NCBI GenBank assembly: GCA_019509785.1 | Contig: JAEKLQ010000085.1 | Coordinates: forward strand, 9,448 to 47,952 | Length of the DNA: 38,505 bases | Reading direction: 5' to 3' | DNA from: Fibrobacterota bacterium | Lineage (GTDB): Bacteria > Fibrobacterota > Fibrobacteria > UBA11236 | Shown: positions 1,199 through 18,372 of the stretch, in pieces | Layout of the letters: each line of letters starts with the position of its first letter | Numbering within the stretch: the stretch's first letter is position 1 | The notes under the pieces: model-generated | What the model saw: the letters and a program-made list of their open reading frames with translations, nothing else | Told to the model about the DNA's origin: nothing | The model's database searches: none | Position numbers and translations under genes: made by a program

Positions 1199-3175
1199 TC
1201 AGAAATGGACGGTCATGAACACGTCGGTCAACAATTGCGAGAAATCGTGATCGCCGCCCGCGGCGGGCGTGGGCTCGTCGACCTTGATTTGCCCGACCGT
1301 GAAGAGCAGGTGCGCGCCGGCCGCGACCTTGTAGTCGATCCCGCCGGCGGTATGCGTCTGTACTTGCTTCGCTTCGGTGGCCGCGCGGTCGACGGTGGTG
1401 GTGATTTGCTGCCAGCCGCCGAGCACGGTGAACCGCTTCCAGAAGTTCCATTGGGCCCCGGCATTGATGAAGTCGCTGGTGACCTTGGTCAAGGCGTGCA
1501 GCGTGTCCCCGGCTATGCCGTCATTGTCGGCGGTGGAACGCATGAAGCTTCCGGCCAGCGTTAGGGGCAAGGACAGGCCCATGAGGCCGCCGGCTTCGAC
1601 CTTGAGTCCGCCTCCGGCCTGGGTGAATTTGGTGACGGGCAGCGAGCGAACCGTATCCACCATGACCCCGGTCGCGTTCTCCAATGCGGCGTAGGAGCCT
1701 TGCACCTCGATATTCCCGTTCATGGCATCCGCGGTGAGATCGGATTGGATCCCCTTGCGGTTGGGCGTGGCTTGGCCGAAAGGCATGACCAACTGGACGG
1801 CGGTGTCGATGCGCGAGGCCGCGAAGGCCGCCATTTCGCCCTGGGTCATGATTGAGCTGTTCCAGGAATTCTTCTGGAAGGGCGCCCTGGCCCACAGGTT
1901 CGTCGCGACGCCCGGTACGAACTTGTAAACGTGATCGTAAAGGGCATCGAAGGTGGAATAATTGCGGGCGCGGGGATCGTTGATGCGCACTCTCGTCGTG
2001 TCGTTATCGATATTCAGGACACGTTCACCCACGAAAGTCGGGCTCTGGGCCAGCTCGTTGCGGTAGCCCGCATCATTCGATACGTAATTCACTCCGGCTT
2101 TGAGCGCGAAGGCCTTACCCGCCGACCAGTTCCCTTGCAGGCGCGCCAGGAGCGCATTCCCGACTATCTGGTTATGGGTGACCCCTGTTGCGGTCTTAGT
2201 CGCGTAGAAATCCGTGTCATCCGTTGATTTGGCGAATTCGGCCGAGAGGGATACGTCCCAATCCTTGGTGCCGAGCAGGGAAGCGAGATCGTAGCCGGCC
2301 CGGCCGCTGGCGATCGAGGTATGTTGGGCGGCGGTATCCGCGGTCGGCGCCGCGAAGCTGCCCTTCTTGTCGAAGATCAACAGATAGCTGGCGCCCAAGG
2401 AGATGCCCAATGGCGAGGCCAAATCCAAGTTGCTGGCTGCCAGGTATTTTTCCGACAAGGCCCGTTCGATGAAGTCGGTCGGCTTGTCGCCATTGCCGAT
2501 GTTGGTCTCCACGTTGCGCAGACGTGAACCGAGTACATCGTAGTGGAACTCCTTGAGCAAGGCGCGATCGCTGTTATCCACCGAGGCGTCGAAGGCAAGG
2601 TCCACGCCTTGCATCAGGCGTTTGTTGTCCTGCAGGAACACCTCGTCCATGGCTTCCCGGCGATCGCCGGCGAACAAGGCGGGCTCGTATTCGACCTCGG
2701 GAGACGGGGCCCACAAAGTCAGCGGGCTGTACTTACGCAGGAAATCGCCCGCGGAATAGGTGAACATGCCTTTCACGTTCCCGTCGATGCTGAGCCAGCG
2801 GGTGTTGATGGGATTGCCGATATCGGAGAAGAAGTTCCGCCAATCCTGGTGCATGCGCATGATAAGGTGGCCCTCGGTGGCGGAGTTCGGCCGGGCCCGG
2901 ATATCGAAATCCACCGAGGTGTATTCCACGCCTTCTTCGGAGCGCAGGGAGGGGATGGAACCCGGCCCTTCGATGGAGGAATGCAGGTATTGGGAACGGA
3001 AAGCCCCGCCCACGGATATCCCTTCCTTCGAGAGGATATTCTCGAGGACCTTGGCCGTGCCCGAATCCGGCGACACCGGTTCGGCGGCGCCGGCACGCGC
3101 GGCCAGAAAGGCCGTCAGGGCCAGGATGAGGGTCCCCGGGACCCTTACGGTTATTTGCTTCGGCAGGATGGGCAT
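1199..3175 (-). CDS. Predicted outer-membrane beta-barrel protein, putative oligosaccharide porin (second of pair)
   Basis: 658 residues. The start is ATG 3175-3173 (MPILPKQITVRV...), with AGGAG five bases upstream; the frame is open further 5' but that would overlap the previous gene's stop. A signal peptide with a hydrophobic run and an ARAGAAEP cleavage region leads into a protein rich in alternating amphipathic strands. It ends in VFMTVHF, a terminal aromatic typical of barrel proteins handled by BamA. It shares the motif SPLTLW with the upstream gene (SPLTIW there) and a similar overall plan, so the two look like diverged paralogues. The gap to the upstream gene is only 11 bases, so they are co-transcribed. 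No TonB box or SusC-like plug is evident. Its place after a CUT1 importer suggests passage of the same sugar across the outer membrane. The exact family is not recognised. Confidence 0.7.
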   Translation of the reverse strand: MPILPKQITVRVPGTLILALTAFLAARAGAAEPVSPDSGTAKVLENILSKEGISVGGAFRSQYLHSSIEGPGSIPSLRSEEGVEYTSVDFDIRARPNSATEGHLIMRMHQDWRNFFSDIGNPINTRWLSIDGNVKGMFTYSAGDFLRKYSPLTLWAPSPEVEYEPALFAGDRREAMDEVFLQDNKRLMQGVDLAFDASVDNSDRALLKEFHYDVLGSRLRNVETNIGNGDKPTDFIERALSEKYLAASNLDLASPLGISLGASYLLIFDKKGSFAAPTADTAAQHTSIASGRAGYDLASLLGTKDWDVSLSAEFAKSTDDTDFYATKTATGVTHNQIVGNALLARLQGNWSAGKAFALKAGVNYVSNDAGYRNELAQSPTFVGERVLNIDNDTTRVRINDPRARNYSTFDALYDHVYKFVPGVATNLWARAPFQKNSWNSSIMTQGEMAAFAASRIDTAVQLVMPFGQATPNRKGIQSDLTADAMNGNIEVQGSYAALENATGVMVDTVRSLPVTKFTQAGGGLKVEAGGLMGLSLPLTLAGSFMRSTADNDGIAGDTLHALTKVTSDFINAGAQWNFWKRFTVLGGWQQITTTVDRAATEAKQVQTHTAGGIDYKVAAGAHLLFTVGQIKVDEPTPAAGGDHDFSQLLTDVFMTVHF

Positions 3176-3186
3176 GGATGCTCCTA

Positions 3187-5619
3187 TCAGAACCACATTT
3201 TGATTTCCGCCGAGTAGAAGGGCGTGGCCCAATCATTCGCGGAGAAGAATTTGTCCTCGTGTTTCATCCACTTGGCCCGGCCATGGAGGCCGACGCGCGC
3301 GGCGAAATCCCAATCGAAACCGGCGCCATAGGCCCAATCCGTGTAGGCGATCGGGACGTTGGCCACTACGCTAGCGCCCGTTTCGTCCTTAAGGGCCATA
3401 TAGGCCATGTCCGAACGCCAGCTTTCGTAGCCAGCCAGCCCGAGGAAGAAAAGCTTGTCGGTTATCGCGATGGCCGGTTCCGCCCGCATGTAGAGTCCCC
3501 AGAGCATCATATCCTTGGGCGTGAACGCGACCGGCTTCAGGGTCGACGAGACGCCGTTCAGGGCCATGTAACCGCTGAGGAAAATCTCATGGGAATATCC
3601 GATCATCGGGCCGATGTCCACGGCCCCGTCCAAATCCAGGTTGAAGGAATACTTCTGGTGGACAGGGACGAATTGGGAACGGGCGGAGACCGATTGCGGA
3701 ATCGACTGGGTAAGGTTGGAATCGGCTTGGGCGGCGTTCTCGTAGGGCACGAAGCTTTCGAAGATGGAGAGGTAATCGCTACGCAAAGCGCCACCGGCAT
3801 AGCCTACCGGGTTGTTGTATGCGCTCTGGCTATGGAAACTCTCGTCCCCCAGGCGCTTGTTGTAATGTCCGTCGGTGATGGAGAAGTCCACCGGGTCATT
3901 TCCCCAGCGGTTATAGGAGCTCATGAAAACGCTGTTGAAGTCCTGTCCGTTCAGGCGGTAGGGGAAGTAAAGCACGTCCTGCGCTTTTTCGACCTGGAAG
4001 TGCTGGCCGTAAAGGAAGCGCAAGTGGCCGTACCCGACCTGGGGCGAAACCGAAAGGAACATGCCGGCCATGTTCTGCGTGTAGGGGGAAGCTTCGCCGC
4101 GGGCGATGAATTTTCCGGCGCCCACCAGGTTCGAGCCCACGGGATAGAAGCCGTCCACGGGAGCGGCGAAAGAGAAAGGCGAGTAGAATCCTTTGGGTAT
4201 GTAGGCCAGATCCGCTTGCACGGGTACGCCATACTTCGAAAGGATTTTGGCATAGAGCGCGGGGACCGGGTTGGCATGCTTTTCCCAGCGCTTTTCGTGC
4301 GTGAGGAGGATGGTATTTCCCGAGGCATTGCGGGTCGAATCCAGGGTGAACCGGGATTTCACCGTATCGAGATAGCTCACCGCGGCATCCACATGCAGAG
4401 ACAGGTTATCGTTCAATGATCCGCGCAGATCCACGGAACTGACGAAGGGATCCTTATAGAATCCGGATCCGTGGGTCACGGTATAGCGCTGTCCGGTAGG
4501 GGCGTATGTGTAGATGGTGTCGCTAACCAGGAAATTCTTCCGCCAGGCCGGGTTCTCGGTAATATCCGGCTTGTAGACGAACCCGACGACATTCAGTCCC
4601 AAGGTCATGTCATGGATAATCTTGGTATTGGAGATGCGGGCATTGTACATGTGCCGGTAGGAATCCCCGATGCCGACCTGCTTCACGTCGTTGCTCAGGT
4701 CGGCCAGGCCGAGATCGTTCGAGAAATCGATGAACTCGCGTTCGAAGTTGTCGTAACGCTCGAAGGCGGCCCACATCACCTGGGTCTCGAACCCCAAGGG
4801 CAAATCGATGCTGCGCAGGTCTATCCCGTTGAATGCCTTCTTGTTCCAGGCGGCGCGCCCGGCCTTTTCGCCCTTGGCGATGTTGTATTCGTAGTAGCGT
4901 GAGATGGGTTGTTCGATTTCGTAGGGCAGATAATCCCAGGCAAAGGTGCGCGGCTGCGATTTCCAGATGGTGAGAGGGGAGGATTCGGTCCAAAGGACGT
5001 TCCCCATGCGCACCCAGAAGGAAGCCGGGATGGTCCGGATGGCCAAGCCCGCCGCCATGTCTTCGTGGATGATGGCGGGATTATCGGATTTATCGTGGCG
5101 GTTCTGTACGGGGGTGAAACCGGTCGGGATATTGGGGTTGACCGGGACATTGCCGTTGGTATAAATGCCCGGCAAGGTATTCTGGAAGCCGATTTTGGAC
5201 CAGAGCACCGCATTGCGGTTGGCATGTACCACCATGGCCAGGCGCAGCATGGATTCATTGCCTTCCCAGTTGGCCTGGGTCCAGGTTTGATCGTCGGAAA
5301 GGTAGGCGGGGTAATTGTAGAAGTCGTGCTCGGAGATCCGCAGGCGGCCTTCCCCGGAAAAGGAAACCGGGCTCGAACCGCCGAAAAGCAAGGTAGAGCG
5401 CACCTTGGATTCCAGCTCATCCATCGGCGGGAGGTTGGCTGTATCGGCCGTGGAGGCCGCGGCTCCGGAGACGGATCCAGCGGCAACCGTCGGGGCAGGG
5501 GAGGGAGCAGCGGGCCCGGCCGCGTCCGCTGCGGCGTCGGCAGGCGAGGTAAGCGCGCAAGCCAGCCATGCGGCGCAAAACATGGGCAGATGCAGGATGC
5601 CGTATCCGGTCTTTCTCAT
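3187..5619 (-). CDS. Predicted outer-membrane beta-barrel protein, putative oligosaccharide porin (first of pair)
   Basis: 810 residues from ATG 5619 (MRKTGYGILHLPMF...). A TTG ten codons upstream is possible but would add residues before a normal signal peptide. After the signal (ALTSPADA) comes a low-complexity Ala/Pro/Ser/Thr linker to about residue 60. The rest is strand-rich, with many Tyr, Trp and Asn residues, and ends in SAEIKMWF with a terminal Phe as expected of an outer-membrane barrel. The motif SPLTIW is shared with the downstream neighbour. It lies 101 bases after the MalG-type permease gene on the same strand and 11 bases before its paralogue. The Ala/Pro linker at the mature N-terminus could span periplasm or surround a periplasmic partner. 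I do not recognise a named porin family. Confidence 0.7.
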   Translation of the reverse strand: MRKTGYGILHLPMFCAAWLACALTSPADAAADAAGPAAPSPAPTVAAGSVSGAAASTADTANLPPMDELESKVRSTLLFGGSSPVSFSGEGRLRISEHDFYNYPAYLSDDQTWTQANWEGNESMLRLAMVVHANRNAVLWSKIGFQNTLPGIYTNGNVPVNPNIPTGFTPVQNRHDKSDNPAIIHEDMAAGLAIRTIPASFWVRMGNVLWTESSPLTIWKSQPRTFAWDYLPYEIEQPISRYYEYNIAKGEKAGRAAWNKKAFNGIDLRSIDLPLGFETQVMWAAFERYDNFEREFIDFSNDLGLADLSNDVKQVGIGDSYRHMYNARISNTKIIHDMTLGLNVVGFVYKPDITENPAWRKNFLVSDTIYTYAPTGQRYTVTHGSGFYKDPFVSSVDLRGSLNDNLSLHVDAAVSYLDTVKSRFTLDSTRNASGNTILLTHEKRWEKHANPVPALYAKILSKYGVPVQADLAYIPKGFYSPFSFAAPVDGFYPVGSNLVGAGKFIARGEASPYTQNMAGMFLSVSPQVGYGHLRFLYGQHFQVEKAQDVLYFPYRLNGQDFNSVFMSSYNRWGNDPVDFSITDGHYNKRLGDESFHSQSAYNNPVGYAGGALRSDYLSIFESFVPYENAAQADSNLTQSIPQSVSARSQFVPVHQKYSFNLDLDGAVDIGPMIGYSHEIFLSGYMALNGVSSTLKPVAFTPKDMMLWGLYMRAEPAIAITDKLFFLGLAGYESWRSDMAYMALKDETGASVVANVPIAYTDWAYGAGFDWDFAARVGLHGRAKWMKHEDKFFSANDWATPFYSAEIKMWF

Positions 5620-5720
5620 CGTTTGTCCCAAGGCTCCCGCGCGTGACAAGGGCTTCGTCCAGTCCCCAGCGCGGTTCGGAGTTAGTGGCGAAATGTATTA
5701 ATCAGGTTGTCCCCCGGGCA

Positions 5721-7637
5721 CTATTCTTTTACGGCGCCCGCGGTTAGTCCCGAAACGATATGCCGTTGCATCAGGAAAAAAAGCAGCATGACCGGGATGG
5801 TGGAGACCGTCGCCGCCGCCATCATGAGATCGTACCGATTTTGGAAATTACCCACGAAAAGGCGGATACCAACCGGTATGGTATAGGTCTTTTCGTCGGT
5901 AAGCACCCAGGCGAACATAAGTTCATCCCACGCGGAGAGGAAAACATACACGCCCGTCGCGATGATTCCCGGCAATGCGGACGGGATGATGATTCGGAAA
6001 AACGCCTGCAGGGGCCCGCAACCGTCCACGAGGGCGGCTTCTTCCAACTCCTTGGGAAGGGACGCGAAAAATCCCCGCAGGATCCAGATGGAGAAGGGAA
6101 CGAAATAGGCGGCGTAGGTGAGGATCAAGCCGCCGTAAGTGCCCTTTATGATCAGACCGGTGGCGCGGCTGAAATTGATGAACATCAGGTAGAGGGGTAA
6201 GAGCAGCATGATACCGGGCACCATCTGCGTCGCCAGCACCGAATAGCCGAACAGGTTCTTGCCCGGGAAATTGAAGCGCGCCAGGGCGTAGCCGCCCATC
6301 GAAGCCAATACCATGGCCACCAGCATCACGCCGATGCAAACGATGAAACTGTTTTTCAGGTAGAGCCCGAAATCGATGTTGCGCCAGAGGTCCACGTAAT
6401 TGCGCCAATGGATGTACAGGGACGGGAGCGGGGCCGCCGCTTCCGCCACGGGTTTGCCTGCGGCGTCCAGCAAGGACAAGGAGCCATTGGGCCCGCCCAA
6501 TAGGGCGCCGCCTTCCGGCAAAGGCAGGATGGCGGTTATGCGATGGGCGGTGATGTCCTCCGATCGGCCATCCACCTGGGGAAAGCGGGGAAGGAATTCA
6601 ATGGCCTGATCCGACTGGGTCCCCGGGTCCGGGTTGGCCGGGCCCGGCTGGCTCGCCTGGCTTGCCTTACCCTCCTGCGCCGCCGGGTAAGCATCCGGAA
6701 GTGAAGTCGCGCCATGGGAATCGCCCAGCCAGATGCGGCCAGGGCTGCGGCCGAAGGCGGTGATGATACCCGCTCCTTCCTTGCGGTCCAGCCACGTAAG
6801 CACGGAGTCGGCCGAGAGATCGTAAATGAAGGCGCGGGAATCGGCGCTCAACAGCAGTCTGCGGCTATCCAGGGGGAGAATGCGGTTCGGCACCGCGGGC
6901 AAGCGGCCGGCGCGCAGGGAAACGTCCGGGCGGCTCCCGTCGGGGGAGTGCAGGAAAATGCCTTGGTTGGTCAATACCGCCAGCTGTCCATCGACGCTGT
7001 CCGGACGCGTGAAACCGCGCAACAGACCGGCCTCTTTTCCGGGGAAGCCGGCCGCGGGTTTGAATTCGCCCGTCGCCGGATCGAATGAGGTGACGCCGGG
7101 GTAACCTTGGACCTGATAGGCCAGATATAAGACGGGACCCATATGATAAAGGCCCGATCCCGAAACTTCATTCACCCACAGGGTATTCCAGGCCGGACCG
7201 TACGCCGCCGCCATGCGCTCGATCCCGTAGGTTTTCACCAGGGAAAGCTTTTCCGCATCCACTTCTTGCAGGCCGCGATTGCTGGAAAGCGCCCAGAGGA
7301 TGGCGGGCTTCCCGGCTTGGGCCGCATCCAGCCAGAAGCTGGTGGCGAAGGTCCCCAACTCCAGATGGGAAACCTGTTTCAGGTTCCCGTCGAAGCGGGT
7401 GAGGCCGCCATCGGCAGTCCCCGCCAGGTAGCCGTCCGCCATGCGGGCGAGGAAGATGACTTCGTTCTGCCTCCGCCCGGGCATAACCTTGCCGGACAGG
7501 ATTTCCCCGTTGTCCTTAACGCCGCAATAGACCATCCATGCGATGGGGATCAGATGCAAGGCGACCAGGATCCAGGTGAAGACGGTCAGGAACCGGCCGG
7601 ACCATCTGCGGCTGGTAAAGCGGCTGGTATTGCTCAT
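5721..7637 (-). CDS. MalG-type ABC sugar permease with large propeller-like periplasmic insert
   Basis: 638 residues, more than twice the usual 270-300 of MalG-type CUT1 permeases. Residues about 15-40 form the first membrane helix, followed by the familiar GVKDNGEI stretch. The permease resumes at about residue 410 with NYVDLWRN and LKNSF, then five helices and the EAA coupling loop (EEAALVDGCGPLQAFFRIIIP). Between them lie some 350 residues with about seven recurring units ending in motifs such as LTRFDGNL, TSFDPATGEF, IFLHSPDGS, FIYDLSADS and LSLLDAAGK, the look of a seven-bladed beta-propeller. By topology this domain should sit in the periplasm, next to the binding-protein docking face. 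A Pro/Gly/Gln/Ser linker (about residues 330-350) interrupts it. The frame is continuous across the insert, so this is not an assembly join between genes. The role of the insert is unknown. Confidence 0.85.
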   Translation of the reverse strand: MSNTSRFTSRRWSGRFLTVFTWILVALHLIPIAWMVYCGVKDNGEILSGKVMPGRRQNEVIFLARMADGYLAGTADGGLTRFDGNLKQVSHLELGTFATSFWLDAAQAGKPAILWALSSNRGLQEVDAEKLSLVKTYGIERMAAAYGPAWNTLWVNEVSGSGLYHMGPVLYLAYQVQGYPGVTSFDPATGEFKPAAGFPGKEAGLLRGFTRPDSVDGQLAVLTNQGIFLHSPDGSRPDVSLRAGRLPAVPNRILPLDSRRLLLSADSRAFIYDLSADSVLTWLDRKEGAGIITAFGRSPGRIWLGDSHGATSLPDAYPAAQEGKASQASQPGPANPDPGTQSDQAIEFLPRFPQVDGRSEDITAHRITAILPLPEGGALLGGPNGSLSLLDAAGKPVAEAAAPLPSLYIHWRNYVDLWRNIDFGLYLKNSFIVCIGVMLVAMVLASMGGYALARFNFPGKNLFGYSVLATQMVPGIMLLLPLYLMFINFSRATGLIIKGTYGGLILTYAAYFVPFSIWILRGFFASLPKELEEAALVDGCGPLQAFFRIIIPSALPGIIATGVYVFLSAWDELMFAWVLTDEKTYTIPVGIRLFVGNFQNRYDLMMAAATVSTIPVMLLFFLMQRHIVSGLTAGAVKE

Positions 7638-7655: not shown

Positions 7656-8588
7656 TCATTTGCCCGTAAGCTGATCGCGGAAGATCCGGTACCAGATGAA
7701 GACGAGGGTCATCATGGCCAGCATCAGCAGGGAGGACATCGCCGCGCCGGTCCCGAAGTCCCACATCTGGAAGGAATTGCGGAACAGATCGGTCATGAGC
7801 AGATCGCCGTACTTGCCGGGGTATCCCGCGCCGTTGCCGAACATCATGATCACGATATTGAAGGAGTACACGTTGAAGATCATGCCGTGCAGGATGAGGA
7901 TGGCCCAGACGGGCTTGAGCAAAGGCCAGGTGATCTTCCAGAAGGAATGCCACTTGTTCGCGCCGTCGATTTCGGCCGCTTCGTATACGTCTTTGGGGAT
8001 GCTTTGCAGTCCCGCGAGCAGCATGAGCATGGAAAAGGGCCATTGCCGCCAGATCGTAGGAATGACGATCGCCCACAGGGTGTTGGGGCCGATCAGCCAG
8101 GTCGGCTTGGTCGAGAAGATATGCAGCCAATCCGTGAGGATGATGTTGACCAGCCCTACGTCCCGTTGCCACAGGAAGCCCCACAGCAATCCGACCACAT
8201 AAGTTGGTACGATCCAGGGGAATAGCATCAAGGTACGGGCCGCGGAGCGGAAGCGGAATTCGCGATTCACCAACAGGGCCATGGCCATGCCGGTCCCCAA
8301 GGTCCCGATGGTGACCAGGATGGCGTATAGAACGGTATTGCGAACCGCGTCCCACAGGCCGGAACGGATGGGGCTGGCGGGGTTGAACAGGATCTGCCGG
8401 AAATTCTCCAGGCCCGCCCAGGGGGCGGAGAGGTAGGCCAGCAGCATTTCCTTGCGGCTGCGCAGGAAGCCCAGGTATAAGCCCTGCAGGATGGGCAACG
8501 CCTGCAGAAGCAGCATGCCCAACGCGGTAGGGAGGAGGAAAAGGTACGGGACCTTGTTCCGCCTGAAGGCCTGGGCCAATTTCTTCAC
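7656..8588 (-). CDS. MalF-type ABC sugar permease
   Basis: 310 residues from GTG 8588 (VKKLAQAFRRNKVPYLFLLP...). The GTG overlaps the TGA of the binding-protein gene in a GTGA arrangement, which implies translational coupling; upstream in-frame sequence reads as the binding-protein gene in another frame and is rejected. It has six predicted helices and the CUT1 coupling motif YEAAEIDGANKWHSFWKITWP. It would pair with the MalG-type subunit encoded 18 bases downstream to form the inner-membrane channel. Its length and layout are ordinary, in contrast to its partner. Family assignment is firm; the transported sugar is not shown by the sequence. Confidence 0.9.
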   Translation of the reverse strand: MKKLAQAFRRNKVPYLFLLPTALGMLLLQALPILQGLYLGFLRSRKEMLLAYLSAPWAGLENFRQILFNPASPIRSGLWDAVRNTVLYAILVTIGTLGTGMAMALLVNREFRFRSAARTLMLFPWIVPTYVVGLLWGFLWQRDVGLVNIILTDWLHIFSTKPTWLIGPNTLWAIVIPTIWRQWPFSMLMLLAGLQSIPKDVYEAAEIDGANKWHSFWKITWPLLKPVWAILILHGMIFNVYSFNIVIMMFGNGAGYPGKYGDLLMTDLFRNSFQMWDFGTGAAMSSLLMLAMMTLVFIWYRIFRDQLTGK

Positions 8589-10006
8589 TGGGCCGCCGCC
8601 GCCATGGATTTCTCGAGCACTGCCCGCTGTTCGGGATGAGTCTTGAACTGGGTTTCGATCTGGTTGTCGATATCCTTCACGGCGGCGTCGACTTCGGCCC
8701 GCACGGCGGCCTCGGAGTAGGGGCCGTTCACTTCGGCGGCGATGTCGAAGAGGTTGCCCATGCGCTTCATCAGGATGGAGGTCTCGATTTCGCCCCAGTA
8801 GGGCACGGCCGCATAGCACCGGCCGTATTGCACCATGTCCTTGAACACGGCGCGCTTGGCGTCGGCGGTGAAGTAGGGGCTGTTGAAGGCGGCCTTCAAG
8901 GCGGGTAGGAAGCCGGACATTTCGGAATAGTTCACTTGGGCGGCGCTATCGGCGGTCATGTAGCGGATCAGCATCTTGGCCAGATCGGGGCGCTTGCTGG
9001 ACTTGAACACGGCGAGGTAGGAACCGCCCATGAACAGGGAACGCTTGGCCGGGCCGGCGGGGGGAAGCAGTACCCCGTAATTGCCGGCCACGTGGCTGCC
9101 GGCCGAGCCGCCCTGCTCCGGGGGCCTTTCCAGGAAGGTGTTCTTGATGGTGGATTCGAACATGCTGGCGATGCGGCCGGCGTCGAAGTCCGCCGAGACC
9201 TGGGCGGTGTTCTTCTCCATGTTGCCCTTGGGATTCAGGCCCTTATGCACCATGTCCAGATAGAAGAGAATACCCTTCATCGATTCCGGGCTGTTCAAGG
9301 TGCACTTGTCGCCCATCGGGTTGAGGAAATCGCCGCCGGCGCTCCAGATCCAAGGGGCGAAATTATGCACCACGTTCCAGTCGTTCTTGCCCGGGAAACC
9401 GATGGGTTCGATGGGTTGCCCATCGTTCTTGAGCCCTAAGGCTTTGATCTTTTCCAAGCCGGCCAGGTAGCCGTCCCAGGTATCCACGGTCTTGGGATCC
9501 ACCTTGGCCTTCGCGAAGACATCGGTACGGTAGAACATGGGACGCACGTCGAGGAACCAGGGTAGGGAGGTGACGTGGGCCGATGCCCGGGGTTTCACCT
9601 GGGCCCAGGTGCTGGGCAGGAATGTGTCCTTAACGTGGAGCTCGGCATCCATGTCGTCGAGAGGGAGCAGCGCGCCTAAATCGGTTATGAAAGGGGTCCA
9701 GGTGGCGCCCAATTGCACCACGTCGGGGCCGTCGCCCGAAATGGCGGCCGTGGTCAGCTTGGTCCAGGCGCTGCCCCAATCCAACACCGAAATCTTCACG
9801 TTCACGTCCGGATGGGCCGCCTTGAAAGGCTCCAGCAACGTAATGATATCCGCTTCAGGTTTGGGCGAGTTGGGCATCACCCAAACCAGCAGATCGCCGC
9901 CGCCCTTGGGCGCCTTCTCTACCTTCTCCGCCTGCTTCGCTTCCTTATTGCAGCCTGCGAGCAGTGCCGCCAGCGCCGCCGCCGCCATGGTGGTCCGGTA
10001 TGTCAT
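8585..10006 (-). CDS. CUT1-type sugar-binding lipoprotein of ABC importer
   Basis: 473 residues, ATG at 10006 with GAGAGGGA about seven bases upstream. The signal peptide ends in the lipobox LLAGC (Cys19), so the protein is tethered by lipid. The mature part opens with a Lys/Glu/Gly linker and then LLVWVMPN, followed by the family-1 pattern LEPFKAAHPDVNVKISVLDWG and GDGPDVVQLG, typical of extracellular solute-binding proteins for oligosaccharides. The residues immediately after Cys (NKEAKQ) resemble those of the unrelated binding protein at 12882 (NKESKP). It lies between the ATPase and permease genes, so the complete importer is encoded together. The ligand is unknown; beta-glucoside is suggested only by the neighbouring GH1 gene. 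Confidence 0.9.
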   Translation of the reverse strand: MTYRTTMAAAALAALLAGCNKEAKQAEKVEKAPKGGGDLLVWVMPNSPKPEADIITLLEPFKAAHPDVNVKISVLDWGSAWTKLTTAAISGDGPDVVQLGATWTPFITDLGALLPLDDMDAELHVKDTFLPSTWAQVKPRASAHVTSLPWFLDVRPMFYRTDVFAKAKVDPKTVDTWDGYLAGLEKIKALGLKNDGQPIEPIGFPGKNDWNVVHNFAPWIWSAGGDFLNPMGDKCTLNSPESMKGILFYLDMVHKGLNPKGNMEKNTAQVSADFDAGRIASMFESTIKNTFLERPPEQGGSAGSHVAGNYGVLLPPAGPAKRSLFMGGSYLAVFKSSKRPDLAKMLIRYMTADSAAQVNYSEMSGFLPALKAAFNSPYFTADAKRAVFKDMVQYGRCYAAVPYWGEIETSILMKRMGNLFDIAAEVNGPYSEAAVRAEVDAAVKDIDNQIETQFKTHPEQRAVLEKSMAAAAQ

Positions 10007-10046: not shown

Positions 10047-11099
10047 TCAGGGGTCGAAGAAATGCAAATGCGCCGATTCGGGGATCAGGGTCACCCTATC
10101 CCCGCGGCCGATGCGCGTTTCCGGATCGATCCGCGCCACCGCGCGATGCTCGCCGGACCGGCAGTACACCAAGGTTTCCGCCCCCAGGGGCTCGACCACT
10201 TCCACTTCGGCCGGCAGCCCTTTGTCCGAGCCGCCGGCCACCAGGCGCAAATGCTCGGGCCGCACGCCCAGAACCGACCTGACCGGAGGCTTCACCTTGA
10301 AATCGCCAAGGGTCACGCCGGTCGCGCCGGCGCCGGGAACGGTCAATGAATCTCCATCCCACGCGCAAGGCAGGAAATTCATGGGCGGCATGCCGATGAA
10401 GCCGGCCACGAACTTGTTCACCGGCGATCGATACAGATCCATGGGCGGGCCGTATTGCTGGATCACCCCATCCTTCATGCAGACGATGCGATGGCCCATG
10501 GTCATGGCCTCGGTCTGATCGTGGGTCACGTAGATCATGGTGGTCTGCAGTCGCGCCGAGAGGCGCGAAATCTCCACCCGCATCTGCACCCGCATCTTGG
10601 CATCGAGGTTGGAAAGCGGTTCGTCGAAGAGGAACACCTTCGGCTTACGGACGATGGCGCGGCCCAGGGCCACGCGTTGGCGTTGCCCGCCTGATAGGGC
10701 CTTGGGCTTACGGGAAAGGTACGGCGTTATGCCCAGCATCTCGGCCGCCTCGGCCACGCGGGCCTTGATTTCCGCTGACGGGAGCCTGCGCAGCTTCAGG
10801 CCGAAAGCCAGGTTCTGCTCCACGGTCATGTGGGGATAGAGCGCGTAGTTCTGGAACACCATGGCGATGTCCCGGTCCTTGGGGGCCACATCATTGCAGC
10901 GCTTCCCATCGATGAAGAGTTCGCCCGAGGAGATCTCTTCCAGGCCGGCGACCATGCGCAACAAGGTGGATTTGCCGCATCCCGACGGGCCGACCAGGAC
11001 CAGGAATTCCTTGTCCCGGACGTCGAAGGACAAGTCCTTCACGGCGGTTACCCCGCCTTCATAGACCTTGCTGATGTTCTTAAGTACGACTTCGGCCAC
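10047..11099 (-). CDS. MalK/UgpC-type ATPase of sugar ABC importer
   Basis: 350 residues from GTG 11099 ([16 protein letters not shown]...). The frame is open for about 170 codons further upstream, but that sequence overlaps the divergent GH1 gene and its coding bias is wrong. All ATPase motifs are present: Walker [10 protein letters not shown], signature LSGGQRQR, Walker B VFLFDEP, D-loop SNLDAK and the switch His in [10 protein letters not shown]. The C-terminal 110 residues carry the MalK-type regulatory fold with [11 protein letters not shown]. It is the first gene of the minus-strand operon, 40 bases ahead of the binding protein. Many genomes share one such ATPase among several CUT1 importers, but here it is dedicated by position. 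Confidence 0.92.
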
Positions 11100-12881: not shown

Positions 12882-14690
12882 ATGATGGGCATGAAAAGAC
12901 TCGGCATCCCCCTGGCGATCGTGGGGCTACTCCTTATCGCGGGTTGCAACAAAGAAAGCAAGCCGGCCGGCCAGGAAGAAACCAAGGCGGGCGGTTTCCC
13001 CCGCAGCAAGACCCTTTACATGGGCGGCTCCCAATGGGGCGATCCCAACTCCTTCAACCCCTTGACGGATTGGCCCGCCTGGCCCGTGAACGATAAGTTC
13101 AACATCATGTTCGAAACCTTGCTCGCCTACAATACCTTGAGCGGAAAATTCGAGCCTTTGTTGGGCACGCTCGAATCGCAATCGGCCGACAGCGTGGTCG
13201 TGACGTTGAATCCCGCCGCCAAATGGAGCGATGGACAGCCCGTCACCTCCGCCGACGTGAAGTTCGTCTATGAATTGGGCAAACGCTACAAGGGCGCAGC
13301 CACGGCTTATGCCATCGATTTCGTTTCCGATATCAAGGTGAGCGCGAACCCCGACAAGTCCGAACGCCTGACCTTCATGGTCAACAAAAAGGGCCGTAAC
13401 AATCCCCTGGTCGTTCTCGATTTCCTGCAAGCCATCCGCATCCTGCCCGCCCACGTATTCGAACCCAAGCTGGCCCAACTCAAGGATCTCGCCGAGGTCC
13501 AGAAACTGAAATGCGATTCCAATCCCGTCGTGTCGGGGCCGTATAACCTGGAAGCCTATTCCAACGAGAAGATCATCCTCAAGCGCCGCGAGGATTATTG
13601 GGGAAATGCCGCTTTGCATGGCGGAAAGGCTCCGGCCCCCCAGTTCATCATCCATCCCATCTATAAGAGCAATGACGCCTTCGCCATCGCCCTGGCCCAG
13701 AACGAACTGGACGCCACCCAGACCTATATCCCGCGCATCTGGATGAAGAAGAACGCCGGCGTGCTGACCTGGTACGATAAGGAACCCTACTTCGTGCCCG
13801 GCGCTATTCCCACCCTGCTCATCAACTCCACGCGCTATCCGCTTTCGGACAAGGCCTTCCGGCGCGCCATGGCCTTCGCCATCGACTACAAGAGCATCAA
13901 GGATCTGGCCGTCTCCGGTTACAGCCCGAACCTGAAGCCCGGCGCCATCATGCCCTTCGGCATCGAAGGCGGCTACTACAATGACGAAGACGCCCAGAAA
14001 TACGGCGCGGCCTTCAACGCGGAAACCGCCAAGAAGATTTTGGCTGAAGCCGGCTACAAGTCCGTTTTTAAACCCGACGGCAGCTTGGATAAGATGCTCG
14101 ACGCCAAGGGCAAGCAAGTGCCCACCTTGTTCGTGAAGAGCCCGGCCGGGTGGTCGGATTGGGAAGCCATCGTAACCTTGGCGGTCAAAGGCATGCGCGC
14201 GGCCGGTATCGACGTGCGCGAAGGCTTCGTGGACGCGGGGCTATACTGGCAGAGCCAGCCGGTGGGCGATTTCGATCTGGAAATGATCAAGCCCGCCGCC
14301 AGCGTTACGCCGTCGCAGCCCTGGTCCCGTCTGGCAGCCTTGATGTCGTCGCGCACCTGGGCGCCTCCCGGCGAAAAGATGAACGAGAACCAGGGGCGTT
14401 TCAACAACCCCAAGGGCAAGGGCTACATCAAGGCCGTCGACAGCCTGCTGTCGGTAATCCCCACCTTGACCGACAAGGCCGCGCTCACCCAGGCCTACCG
14501 GAACCTGAACGTCATTTTCATGCAAGAGCAGCCGGCCCTGCCGCTGTGCTATCTCCCGGAGCAGTTCTACCAGGTCAACAACAAGACCTGGACCAATTGG
14601 GCCACGGACGCCAATCCCTATGCTCCGCCGAATCTGCCTTGGGCGGGCGCCGCGACCAAGATGCTGTGGGAATTGAAGCCGGCCAAGTAA
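12882..14690 (+). CDS. Family 5 extracellular solute-binding lipoprotein (peptide/oligosaccharide ABC importer)
   Basis: 602 residues, ATG 12882, with GAGAGGA just upstream (an ATG three bases on is equally possible). A short basic N-terminus and hydrophobic core end in LLIAGC, so Cys22 is lipidated. The family 5 pattern follows: an N-terminal domain with GDPNSFNPL, the WSDGQPVTSADVKFVYE segment, then RRAMAFAIDY and a long C-terminal lobe ending near LPWAGAATKMLWELK. The family binds peptides, nickel, or, in thermophiles and archaea, cello- and other oligosaccharides. The neighbouring GH1 gene makes a sugar ligand credible but not proven. It is the first gene of a five-gene operon encoding the whole importer. 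Confidence 0.9.
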   Translation: MMGMKRLGIPLAIVGLLLIAGCNKESKPAGQEETKAGGFPRSKTLYMGGSQWGDPNSFNPLTDWPAWPVNDKFNIMFETLLAYNTLSGKFEPLLGTLESQSADSVVVTLNPAAKWSDGQPVTSADVKFVYELGKRYKGAATAYAIDFVSDIKVSANPDKSERLTFMVNKKGRNNPLVVLDFLQAIRILPAHVFEPKLAQLKDLAEVQKLKCDSNPVVSGPYNLEAYSNEKIILKRREDYWGNAALHGGKAPAPQFIIHPIYKSNDAFAIALAQNELDATQTYIPRIWMKKNAGVLTWYDKEPYFVPGAIPTLLINSTRYPLSDKAFRRAMAFAIDYKSIKDLAVSGYSPNLKPGAIMPFGIEGGYYNDEDAQKYGAAFNAETAKKILAEAGYKSVFKPDGSLDKMLDAKGKQVPTLFVKSPAGWSDWEAIVTLAVKGMRAAGIDVREGFVDAGLYWQSQPVGDFDLEMIKPAASVTPSQPWSRLAALMSSRTWAPPGEKMNENQGRFNNPKGKGYIKAVDSLLSVIPTLTDKAALTQAYRNLNVIFMQEQPALPLCYLPEQFYQVNNKTWTNWATDANPYAPPNLPWAGAATKMLWELKPAK

Positions 14691-14700
14691 GGATTCCGTC

Positions 14701-15771
14701 ATGTTGAAACAGTATCCCACCCTCCGTTACATCCTCCACCGGGGGGGCTGGTATTTCCTGACCTTCCTGGTGGCCGTAACGATCAACTTCTTCCTCCCGC
14801 GCCTCGGGACCAGCAATCCCGTGGACATCATCATGGGGAAAGCCGGTTCCGGCTTGGATACTGAAGCCGCGCGCGAAAAGGAAGAATCCTATCTCAAGGA
14901 ATTCGGCCTGGTACAAGTGGATGCGACCGGTACCATCCTGCGCGGGGCGGACGGCAAACCGCTCAAGTCGTCGAACGTTTCCCAGTTCTTCAATTACGTG
15001 AAGATGTGCTTCCAAGGGGATTTCGGAACCTCGTTCCAGAAATACCCGAAGAAGGTGACGACCATTATCGCCGAGGCGGTGCCGTGGACCTTGGCATTGC
15101 AGCTCCCCACCATTCTGTTCGGCTGGTTGGTGGGCAATATCCTGGGCGCGCTGGCGGCCTACCGGCGCGGGGTATTCGACCGGGTCTTCTTTCCCCTAGC
15201 CCTGCTCTTAAGCGCCGTGCCCTTCTTCGCCTTCGGCATGTTGCTGGTGTACGTATGCGCCATCCGGAACGGCTGGCTGCCCGCCATGGGCGGTTACGCC
15301 GGTGATATGGTGCCGGGCTTCAACCTGGACTTCATCAAATCGGCGGGGTCCCATTACATCCTTCCCTTCTTTTCCATCTTCCTGATCCTGGCCGGCGGCC
15401 AAGCTATCGGCATGCGGTCGATGGGCATTTACGAGCTCGGCACCGACTACATCAAGTACGCCAAATGGCTCGGCATCAAGGAAAACAAGATTCTGCTTTA
15501 CCTGTTCCGTAACGCCATGCTGCCCCAGCTCACGGGGCTGGCCCTTTCCCTGGGCGGCATGATCGGCGGCGCGCTCATTACGGAAATGATCTTTTCCTAT
15601 CCGGGCTTGGGCATGGCCATCCTTAGCGCCATCCAGGGGCAGGACTATCCCATGATTCAGGGTTGTACCTTGCTTGTCACCATCAGCGTGCTGATCGCCA
15701 ACTTCACCGTGGACATCCTCATCGGCTTCCTGGACCCGCGCGTCAAAGCCGGACAGATGGGGGGCAATTGA
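14701..15771 (+). CDS. DppB/OppB-type permease
   Basis: 356 residues, ten bases after the binding-protein stop, with AAGGA about eight bases before the ATG. A first helix (residues about 15-35) is followed by a long periplasmic segment to about residue 125. That segment carries a charged stretch and is longer than in E. coli DppB. Five further helices follow, with the typical DppB signature near YIKYAKWLGIKENKILLYL and the closing GFLDPRVK. It pairs with the DppC-type subunit encoded immediately downstream. The long first periplasmic loop is common in DppB relatives serving sugars, which mildly supports an oligosaccharide substrate; this is inference. Confidence 0.9.
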   Translation: MLKQYPTLRYILHRGGWYFLTFLVAVTINFFLPRLGTSNPVDIIMGKAGSGLDTEAAREKEESYLKEFGLVQVDATGTILRGADGKPLKSSNVSQFFNYVKMCFQGDFGTSFQKYPKKVTTIIAEAVPWTLALQLPTILFGWLVGNILGALAAYRRGVFDRVFFPLALLLSAVPFFAFGMLLVYVCAIRNGWLPAMGGYAGDMVPGFNLDFIKSAGSHYILPFFSIFLILAGGQAIGMRSMGIYELGTDYIKYAKWLGIKENKILLYLFRNAMLPQLTGLALSLGGMIGGALITEMIFSYPGLGMAILSAIQGQDYPMIQGCTLLVTISVLIANFTVDILIGFLDPRVKAGQMGGN

Positions 15772-16608
15772 ATGCTTAAGCTGCTCAAGAACCTGCTGAA
15801 GTCGCCATCCTTCATCATAGGCATGGGACTCTTTCTCCTCACCATCGGCGGCGCGCTACTGCTGCCGTTCTTCTACCACGTGAACTTGGGTTTGCAATCG
15901 AGCTCCTATGCCAGCCCCAGCGGCAAATTCCTTTTGGGATGCGACCATTTGGGACGGGACATGGTCTCTATGCTGATCGAAGGCCTGCGATCCTCGCTCT
16001 ACGTGGGCTTGCTGACGGGCGTCATCGCCACCACCTTGGGGACCGCGCTGGGCATTTACGGAGGCTTCAAGGGCGGCTGGATGGACGACGTGGTCAATCT
16101 CGTCACCAACCTCTTCCTGGTGATTCCCTCCTTCGTGGTCCTGATCCTGATCAGCTCCAGCCTGTCCAAAGGCCGCTCCCTCACCTTGATCGGCCTTATC
16201 ATCGGCCTGACCACCTGGACCTGGAGCGCCCGCGCCGTGCGCGCGCAGGCGGCCTCCTTGAAGTCGCGCGACCATATCGCCCTGGCCCGCATCAACGGGT
16301 CCGGAACCCTCCGCATCCTCGCCGTGCATATCCTTCCCTACCTGGCCTCCTACGTCTTCATGGTTTTCATCCTGCAAGTGGCATCGGGAATCCTGTCGGA
16401 AGCCGCCATCAGCATGATCGGCCTGGGCCCGTTGGATACGGTCTCGCTGGGCACCATCCTCAACGATGCCAAGAACCAAGGCGGTTTCGGGGACGGCATG
16501 TGGTGGGCGTTCATGCCCGCGACCGTCATCATCACCGTCCTGGTGTTCGCGTTGTACATTATCAACACGTCGATGGAAGGGGTGTTCAACCCCCGGCTGC
16601 GGAAGTAG
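15772..16608 (+). CDS. DppC/OppC-type permease
   Basis: 278 residues; the ATG follows the TGA of the previous gene with no gap, so translation is probably coupled. One N-terminal helix (IIGMGLFLLTIGGALLLPFF) is followed by LLGCDHLGRDMVSMLIEGLRSS, the DppC hallmark GTDxxGRD-like region, five more helices and the coupling loop near IALARINGSGTLRILAVHILP. It ends in the family's usual short tail GVFNPRLRK. With the DppB-type subunit it forms the inner-membrane channel. No unusual features. Confidence 0.9.
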   Translation: MLKLLKNLLKSPSFIIGMGLFLLTIGGALLLPFFYHVNLGLQSSSYASPSGKFLLGCDHLGRDMVSMLIEGLRSSLYVGLLTGVIATTLGTALGIYGGFKGGWMDDVVNLVTNLFLVIPSFVVLILISSSLSKGRSLTLIGLIIGLTTWTWSARAVRAQAASLKSRDHIALARINGSGTLRILAVHILPYLASYVFMVFILQVASGILSEAAISMIGLGPLDTVSLGTILNDAKNQGGFGDGMWWAFMPATVIITVLVFALYIINTSMEGVFNPRLRK

Positions 16609-16616
16609 GAGTTATC

Positions 16617-17591
16617 ATGCCGACCTTCGAAGTTGATCATTTAAGCCTGCATTACCTGACCCGTTTCGGGGACAAGATCCAGGCCGTGTCGGACGTTTCC
16701 TTCACCATGGAACAGGGCGAAATCTTAGGGATAGCCGGCGAATCCGGCTGCGGCAAATCCACCCTCGTGAACGGCCTGATGGGCCTGTTCATCCCGCCGC
16801 TCTATCCCACGTCCGGCGACGTACGCGTAGGGGGCGAGTCGCTCATGAATCGCACGCCCGTGGAAATCCGAAAGAACGTGCTGAGCCAAAAGGTCTCCAT
16901 GATCCCCCAGGGGGCCTTCAACGCCCTTAATCCCACCCGCAAGATCAAGGACATCGCCGCGGACGTGATCGCCAGCCATAGCGGCGGCCATACCAGCAAA
17001 AAGGATATCGAAGCCCGCCTGCGCCAACGCTTCGATTTGTTCGGCATGGATACGGAACGCGTCTTGAACGCTTTCCCCATCCAACTCACGGCCGGCGAAC
17101 GCCAGCGTTCGGTGATCGGCATTTCCACCTTGCTCAATCCCCAGATGGTCATCGCCGACGAGCCCACCTCGGCGCTCGACGTGACCACCCAGAAGGTCGT
17201 GATCCGCATGATCTTCGACTTGTTGGACAAGGGCATTTTCAACACCATGATTTTCATCACCCATGAGCTGCCCCTGCTCCGCCACGTGGCGAACAATATC
17301 GCCATCATGTATGCGGGCGAGTTCGTGGAAAAGGGGACCAACGAGCAAATCGTGTTTGATCCCCGCCATCCTTATACCAAGGCGCTCATGGGGTCCATGC
17401 TCAGCGCCGAACCCGGCCAGAAAAGCCGCAAGCCCGTCTCCATCGAAGGCGCGCCACCCAGCCTGGCCAAGGTCCCCCCCGGCTGCCGTTTCGCCGCGCG
17501 CTGCCCCGTGGCGCGGCCCGACTGCAAAACCGAAAAGCAGGAACTGCGCATGGTGGCCGGCCGCCTCGTAAGGTGCAAGTATGCCGAATAA
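16617..17591 (+). CDS. DppD-type ATPase with altered signature motif and Cys-rich C-terminus
   Basis: 324 residues from ATG 16617, with TAGGAG six bases upstream. The frame is open back into the previous gene, but only as a shadow. Walker A is GESGCGKST and Walker B MVIADEP with D-loop SALD. The signature is LTAGERQR (from residue 157) instead of LSGGxxQR: the second and third positions differ and the fifth position is Glu. In the dimer this would weaken the ATP site formed with the partner's Walker A. The C-terminal oligopeptide-transporter extension holds four cysteines (GCRFAARC, PDC and RCKYAE), the arrangement reported to bind a [4Fe-4S] cluster in DppD-type ATPases. The 3' end overlaps the next gene by 11 bases. 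Confidence 0.88.
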   Translation: MPTFEVDHLSLHYLTRFGDKIQAVSDVSFTMEQGEILGIAGESGCGKSTLVNGLMGLFIPPLYPTSGDVRVGGESLMNRTPVEIRKNVLSQKVSMIPQGAFNALNPTRKIKDIAADVIASHSGGHTSKKDIEARLRQRFDLFGMDTERVLNAFPIQLTAGERQRSVIGISTLLNPQMVIADEPTSALDVTTQKVVIRMIFDLLDKGIFNTMIFITHELPLLRHVANNIAIMYAGEFVEKGTNEQIVFDPRHPYTKALMGSMLSAEPGQKSRKPVSIEGAPPSLAKVPPGCRFAARCPVARPDCKTEKQELRMVAGRLVRCKYAE

Positions 17592-18372
17592 TCCGACCGC
17601 CCCCGTTTTTTACGCCAGGAATGTGACCAAGACTTTTGGTCATGGGAAGACCCTGGTCAAGGCCGTCGACGACGTTTCCTTTTCCATCGCGGACGGGGAA
17701 ATCGTCTCCATCGTGGGCGGCTCGGGCTGCGGCAAAAGCGTGTTGGCCAAGGTAATGCTCGGCCTATACAAGCAGAACCAAGGCGAATTCACCTACCGCG
17801 GCAAGGCCATCACGGATACCCGCAGCCATTGGAACGAAGTCCAATCGGTGTTCCAGGATCCCTTCAGCTGCTTCAACCAGTTCTTCAGCATCCGCTCCCA
17901 GCTCAAGGACTCGCTGAACATCCTGAAGATCAAGCCCTCCAAAGCCGAAGCGGATGCGCGCGTGGACGCGGGGCTATTGGCGGTGAACATCACTCCCAAG
18001 GATATCGAAGGCAAATACCCGTTCGAACTTTCCGGGGGCCAGATGCAGCGTATGCTGCTGGCGCGCATCTTCGCCCTGCGGCCCAAGGTCCTGATCGCGG
18101 ATGAGCCCACTTCCATGGTGGACGCCTGCGTGCGCGCGAACATCCTGGACTACCTGATGAAGCTGAAGGTGGAGCTGGGCATGACCATCATCTTCGTGAC
18201 GCACGATATCGGCCTGGCCTATTACGTGAGCGATCGGCTTTTCATCATGCACGAAGGGAAGATCGTGGAATCGGGAACGCCGGATGAGGTGACCCAGCAT
18301 CCGAAGAGCCCGCATACCGTGCACCTGCTCGAGGATATTCCCGAGATCCATAAGGAATGGCTTAAGCGTTAA
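17581..18372 (+). CDS. DppF-type ATPase, short form
   Basis: 263 residues, shorter than the usual 310-330 of DppF/OppF because the cysteine-containing C-terminal extension is absent; it ends shortly after HPKSPHTVHLLEDIP. Walker A is GGSGCGKS followed by Val rather than Thr, the signature is canonical LSGGQMQR, Walker B is VLIADEP, the D-loop SMVD and the switch His is in FVTHD. It starts at ATG 17581, 11 bases inside dppD, so the two subunits are made in a coupled way. Its intact signature next to the altered one of the partner suggests an asymmetric ATPase pair with one strong and one weak site. Last gene of the importer operon. Confidence 0.88.
   Translation: MPNNPTAPVFYARNVTKTFGHGKTLVKAVDDVSFSIADGEIVSIVGGSGCGKSVLAKVMLGLYKQNQGEFTYRGKAITDTRSHWNEVQSVFQDPFSCFNQFFSIRSQLKDSLNILKIKPSKAEADARVDAGLLAVNITPKDIEGKYPFELSGGQMQRMLLARIFALRPKVLIADEPTSMVDACVRANILDYLMKLKVELGMTIIFVTHDIGLAYYVSDRLFIMHEGKIVESGTPDEVTQHPKSPHTVHLLEDIPEIHKEWLKR

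Follow-up and report, generated by a model that had tools for sequence, protein, structure and literature searches.

A MalG-type sugar ABC permease with a predicted seven-bladed beta-propeller between its first two membrane helices in Fibrobacterota and Margulisbacteria

The window analyzed here, a stretch of 38,505 nucleotides of DNA from a Fibrobacterota bacterium, encodes a MalG-type permease of the CUT1 class of sugar importers that carries, between its first and second membrane helices, an additional domain predicted to be a seven-bladed beta-propeller. The propeller-bearing permease is a real, conserved design that is present in two bacterial phyla, Fibrobacterota and Margulisbacteria. 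The gene and its parts are the following (window coordinates).

5721..7637, minus strand: MalG-type (SugB-like) CUT1 permease with an inserted beta-propeller, 638 aa (open reading frame, BPD_transp_1, PDB matches)
7518..7592, minus strand: transmembrane helix 1, approximately residues 16–40 (hydropathy, AlphaFold2 helix 4–40)
6414..7484, minus strand: inserted seven-bladed beta-propeller, as predicted, in periplasmic loop P1, residues 52–408 (alignments with and without the insert, AlphaFold2, Foldseek, HTCS profile match, propeller Pfam families in relatives)
5721..6407, minus strand: permease body, helices 2–6, residues 411–638 (identity among congeners 93–98%, SugB/MalG PDB matches)
5967..6050, minus strand: EAA coupling motif ELEEAALVDGCGPLQAFFRIIIPSALPG, residues 530–557 (sequence, alignment)

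The frame is open throughout, with an ATG at 7637. The sole Pfam match of the 638-aa protein is BPD_transp_1 (residues 447–630, 8e-19), and the best PDB matches to residues 409–637 are SugB (8ja7/7cad; 5e-40 for 8ja7_B) and MalG (2r6g; 4e-29 for 2r6g_G). By hydropathy, helix 1 spans residues 16–34 and the second hydrophobic segment begins at residue 431. The core of the EAA motif (E532, E533, D538, G539) is invariant in an alignment of 28 relatives. The protein thus combines the BPD_transp_1 domain and the EAA motif with a MalF-type partner, a family-1 binding protein and a MalK ATPase, as is characteristic of CUT1 MalG, and, apart from the insert, is a permease of the ordinary SugB/MalG type. 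At full length it exceeds the 270–300 aa usual for a family in which only a short loop joins helices 1 and 2, and the body alone fits this norm; this departure is a variation around the CUT1 family and involves no catalytic feature.

The first-pass annotation of this DNA had described about 350 extra residues after helix 1 and before the NYVDLWRN segment, in a family that normally comprises 270–300 residues with a short loop at this site, and both statements hold. Alignment to insert-free relatives (290–300 aa, bodies 59–69% identical, helices 1 and 2 connected by a short loop) delimits the extra segment to residues ~52–408 (357 aa), flanked by a conserved (D/E)ILxGK segment before and a conserved NYxDLW segment after. 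In an AlphaFold2 model of the permease that was built on an alignment of 28 homologues, the insert is predicted to form 28 strands arranged in seven four-stranded blades (60–93, 100–137, 161–194, 206–242, 252–283, 294–348, and 369–401), with pLDDT mostly 80–95; residues 190–250 are weaker (~68–74) and the loop 322–341 is disordered. The propeller-like fold of about seven recurring units that had been suggested, with structure prediction as the check, was therefore recovered by the model instead of the lack of a compact domain, and the motifs quoted at the time (TSFDPATGEF, FIYDLSADS, LSLLDAAGK) are located within blades 3, 5 and 7.

In a Foldseek comparison with the PDB, the body of the model retrieved SugB/MalG and the insert retrieved propellers, among them BamB and the sensor domains of BT4663 and BT4673. 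Searched alone, the window insert yields no Pfam family and no PDB sequence match; among the 28 insert-bearing permeases, at a lenient cut-off, propeller families are detected as PQQ_2 (14/28), PorZ_N_b_propeller (13/28) and Reg_prop (6/28). When the 28 inserts are combined into a profile, it matches in the PDB the periplasmic, sugar-sensing propellers of Bacteroides hybrid two-component systems (HTCS) with E-values of 1e-30 to 1e-33 (2.5e-33 for 4a2l), which are inflated because these targets contain ~14 repeats (the best single stretch reaches 2e-7), and matches BamB far more weakly, at 5e-4. As modelled, the insert is a seven-bladed beta-propeller of the Reg_prop type. By topology, we infer that it sits on the periplasmic side of the membrane, in agreement with the orientation proposed initially.

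In four congeneric genomes, the insert is in frame and in the same uninterrupted arrangement. Within the genus, it is 41–67% identical, compared to 93–98% for the body, and dN/dS is ~0.19–0.30 for the insert and ~0.02–0.03 for the body (with dS near saturation), that is, about 10 times greater in the insert, whose variability among congeners equals that of the downstream outer-membrane genes. In closer pairs from Fibrobacter and Margulisbacteria, the dN/dS of the insert is 0.05–0.07. Judging by these rates, the insert is under purifying selection. Because the frame is uninterrupted in congeners, its dN/dS is constrained and homologous inserts occupy the same site in independent genomes of two phyla, the insert is not an artefact, and the two causes considered at the outset, neighbouring genes fused into one frame and a stop codon lost to a sequencing error, are excluded.

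Among Fibrobacterota, a strong match was found in 28 of 168 genomes, mostly in long frames of 600–809 aa, many of which contain an additional ~100-residue segment inside the propeller. In Fibrobacter (L011–L015, L080–L088), a segment of ~100 residues (W..N..I..LFKK..LFRWCLAE) lies between blades 2 and 3; the permease of the culturable F. intestinalis (L088) has 740 aa. Matches were obtained in 47 of 74 genomes of Margulisbacteria, ~19 of them with a full propeller and the rest with a shorter, divergent or no insert. Several Margulisbacterial permeases (L174–L177, L166) have propeller-like inserts at the same site with a weak match to the family profile (79–179 bits), which suggests a wider diversity of the insert-bearing permease architecture. 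The only match in 341 genomes of Elusimicrobiota (E ≤ 1e-80) is insert-free, and none was detected in 400 genomes of Chloroflexota at E ≤ 1e-120, a threshold that would miss divergent cases. The paralogous MalG of the source genome (L002, a 421-aa open frame) has no insert either; its surplus length precedes helix 1 and is probably an upstream non-coding frame.

The permease gene belongs to an operon that includes the following genes.

10047..11099, minus strand: MalK/UgpC-type ATPase (start probably 11099, although the frame extends to 11621; NCBIfam UgpC, 479 bits from residue 176)
8585..10006, minus strand: family-1 solute-binding protein with a lipobox, LAGC (SBP_bac_1, PDB matches)
7656..8588, minus strand: MalF-type partner permease, ~311 aa, without the P2 domain of enteric MalF (BPD_transp_1, MalF/UgpA models, length and hydropathy)
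3187..5649, minus strand: predicted outer-membrane beta-barrel, downstream in the operon (weak OMP_b-brl match; 63–68% identical neighbours in congeners only)
1199..3232, minus strand: second probable outer-membrane or secreted protein of the operon (no Pfam family; 62–63% identical neighbours in congeners only)

In the PDB, the binding protein is closest to 7c63, a sugar-binding protein from Thermus (4e-99), followed by 7x0i, which is CbpB (4e-88); both of these we take to be binders of beta-glycans and cellobiose. In Margulisbacteria, genes of GH8 or GH26-CBM9 adjoin the MalF-MalG pair (L046:5753-6910, L048:9809-15877, L049:4714-6489, L057:9441-11180), fitting breakdown products of beta-glycan or mannan as the substrate. 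By these sequence relationships, the importer appears to be a normal CUT1 system for oligosaccharides, probably beta-glucan fragments. The two large probable outer-membrane proteins that end the operon (1199-5649, minus strand) have no Pfam family above the cut-off and are possible dedicated sugar porins. The window also contains a second ABC importer operon (12882-18372, plus strand; SBP_bac_5, two BPD_transp_1 permeases and an ATPase), of the oligopeptide type by family.

The gene order MalK, binding protein, MalF, MalG is typical of Fibrobacterota, and in those genomes of the source genus that have the system it continues with the two outer-membrane genes. These two genes follow the transporter in the source genus only; other propeller loci (Fibrobacter, Margulisbacteria) have different or no genes in this place. 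Thus, the search for homologues that share both the insert and the operon, as the first-pass annotation had proposed, found MalK, the binding protein and MalF retained in Fibrobacterota but the outer-membrane genes confined to one genus. In one lineage, a gene for a soluble HisKA-receiver protein (L063:10224-11387, plus strand, also L010/L129; 388 aa, in which neither a sensor nor a membrane segment is evident) begins a few bases past the stop codon of the propeller-bearing MalG; among the genomes examined, this is the case in a single Fibrobacterota genome (G055), and the kinase was accordingly rejected as a conserved neighbour.

In Margulisbacteria, close orthologues of the permease have seven blades, four blades or none. 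Six of them (~480 aa; L049, L050, L052, L056, L057, L068) retain blades 1, 2, 3 and 7 and lack exactly blades 4–6; their insert is predicted to fold into four four-stranded blades with pLDDT mostly 83–93 in the blades and an overall pTM of only 0.46, and the model does not establish a closed ring. The four-blade orthologues could be a natural case of blade loss. In the tree of permease bodies, the four-blade and insert-free orthologues form one clade inside a Margulisbacterial clade that otherwise has full propellers, with the insert-free L061 nested among the four-blade forms, and the hypothesis that the propeller arose only once is not rejected (p-AU 0.23). Because the inserts are homologous and share one site, loss would be more economical than repeated gain; this is not proven, and the direction depends on the root of the tree. 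Given that orthologues with bodies 69% identical to that of the window permease have no insert, the propeller is, by this comparison, dispensable for transport in the relatives. A single binding protein of the same family (41–46% identical) is encoded in 22 of 22 Margulisbacterial genomes whatever the number of blades, so the propeller is an accessory and not a replacement of the binding protein; a fused receptor is ruled out by this single copy together with the presence of the binding protein gene in the operon. Orthologues with seven, four and zero blades that share the same binding protein offer a ready-made comparison for the role of the domain.

The distribution of conserved residues over the propeller bears on this role. 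Loops were derived from the strands of the model, and the D-A and B-C loops were taken as the top face by the usual propeller geometry, not by inspection of coordinates. So defined, conservation is higher in the loops of the top face than in those of the bottom face in three sequence groups, with p-values for the D-A loops of 4e-7 (source genus), 0.01 (Margulisbacteria) and 0.01 (Fibrobacter); omitting G, P, D and N weakens the effect for the D-A loops (0.006, 0.011 and 0.09 in the source genus, Margulisbacteria and Fibrobacter, respectively). Part of the conservation of the B-C loops has a structural cause (T-x-D-G turns). Of the loop aromatics that are highly conserved in Fibrobacterota, nearly all belong to the presumed top face, with W150, W154 and Y/F179 being shared; in Margulisbacteria, there are no conserved top-face aromatics.

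The reading that we favor, with about even confidence, is that the propeller serves beside the binding protein as an accessory module for docking or capture, and that its conserved face interacts with the binding protein, with the glycan chain held by that protein, or with both. It is read in this way because loop P1 of MalG, the site of the insert, has been reported to crosslink with MalE, i.e., to contact the maltose-binding protein (Daus 2007, via PMC3150292); on this report, the initial placement of the insert beside the docking face is reasonable. In the proposed scheme, a MalG-type subunit would have acquired a Reg_prop-type propeller in its helix 1–2 loop; the propeller, being in the periplasm and adjoining the docking site of the lipid-anchored binding protein, would bind this protein, its glycan chain, or both through the conserved face and would thereby hold the loaded binding protein at the channel entrance. 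The P2 domain of MalF in the enteric maltose transporters would be the functional parallel. Counted in favor of the docking or capture role are the predicted propeller fold, the lack of P2 in the paired MalF, the conserved top loops, the proximity of the binding protein to 7c63 and CbpB, the adjoining GH genes and the single copy of the binding protein at every blade number. Against it count the orthologues that do without a propeller, the rapid evolution of the insert, which is as variable as the outer-membrane genes and in this respect not what is usual where a domain contacts a conserved protein, the assignment of the top face by generic geometry, the partly structural conservation of the B-C loops, the weak D-A difference in Fibrobacter after omission of G, P, D and N, and the lack of conserved top-face aromatics in Margulisbacteria. 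The partner of the propeller and its effect on transport are what we infer.

The best PDB sequence relatives of the insert, the HTCS sensor propellers, raise the alternative that the permease is a transceptor, in which the propeller binds oligosaccharide in the manner of HTCS and the transporter either informs a kinase of the sugar supply or adjusts its own activity. The HisKA-receiver gene immediately after MalG in the L063/G055 lineage is in line with this scenario, but such a gene adjoins in that one genome only among those examined, the permease carries no fused signalling element and the profile E-value is inflated by the repeats in the targets, so that we regard it as unlikely. The version in which the permease has its propeller, as a glycan-sensing domain, in common with HTCS receptors, itself reads external oligosaccharide and gates its own transport or signals to a kinase such as the one encoded right after it in that lineage, is in our view quite unlikely. 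Another possibility is a largely neutral or purely structural passenger, a spacer that is tolerated in P1 and easily lost, as the fast evolution of the insert and its repeated reduction to four or no blades among close orthologues could indicate. We assign this a low probability given that the dN/dS is ~0.2–0.3 in the source genus and 0.05–0.07 in the closer pairs, that selective conservation of the loops on one face recurs in three groups and that the insert has been retained across many lineages of two phyla.

Besides sugar sensing and gating of transport, the first-pass annotation had suggested that the insert could hold a partner such as the outer-membrane proteins encoded in the operon. 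In this reading, the propeller would bind both of them and provide a trans-envelope path for sugar, comparable to BamB and its barrel partner. The gene order in the source genus and the presence of BamB among the Foldseek matches speak for this partnership; nevertheless, BamB is one of many propellers listed by Foldseek, its profile match is 5e-4 vs 1e-33 for HTCS, and the propeller permeases of Fibrobacter and Margulisbacteria do without these neighbours. Such a scaffold is very unlikely for the system at hand, and as a general rule the outer-membrane partnership is ruled out.

In the textbook view of CUT1 importers, capture is decided by the binding protein alone; a permease with a large domain resembling a sugar sensor where that protein docks would contribute a second extracytoplasmic site. 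The window permease is like SugB and MalG of LpqY-SugABC and MalFGK2 in its body, six helices, EAA motif and operon partners, whereas the loop between helices 1 and 2 in SugB and MalG is short and domain-free. The P2 domain of enteric MalF, which contacts the binding protein and is not a propeller, is likewise a periplasmic insert in a CUT1 permease, in MalF rather than in MalG, and is missing from the MalF encoded here. It is located between helices 3 and 4 of MalF and comprises ~180 aa (Noll 2008, PMC2246101).

The HTCS propellers of Bacteroides (BT4663, 4a2l; BT4673, 3ott; 3va6; 3v9f) share with the insert the Reg_prop-type repeats, the seven blades and the extracytoplasmic location. Unlike HTCS, in which two tandem propellers and a Y_Y_Y domain are fused to kinase modules, the protein described here has a single propeller in a transporter subunit; its chain contains no kinase or receiver module, the only other domain being the permease. 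PorZ of the Porphyromonas type IX secretion system, which binds glycan (PMC8545088), has an N-terminal propeller whose Pfam family also matches the insert-bearing permeases (see above for the count at the lenient cut-off), although PorZ is a surface protein with two propellers and not a transporter.

The closest parallel in position comes from Thermotogales, where MalG1 and MalG2 contain, after helix 1 and before helix 2, a hydrophilic region of ~500 aa whose fold and function were not identified and which, according to its description, no other MalG has (Noll 2008, PMC2246101). Because of this region, the initial claim that no CUT1 permease of this kind had been described was too strong. In the openly licensed literature, no MalG, sugar ABC or CUT1 permease with a propeller was found to be described. 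Compared by the published description, the Thermotogales proteins have their large region at the same site of MalG as the propeller, but, unlike the window system, belong to an enteric-like Mal lineage with a P2-bearing MalF. The propeller suggests a fold to seek in this long-unexplained region of Thermotoga MalG.
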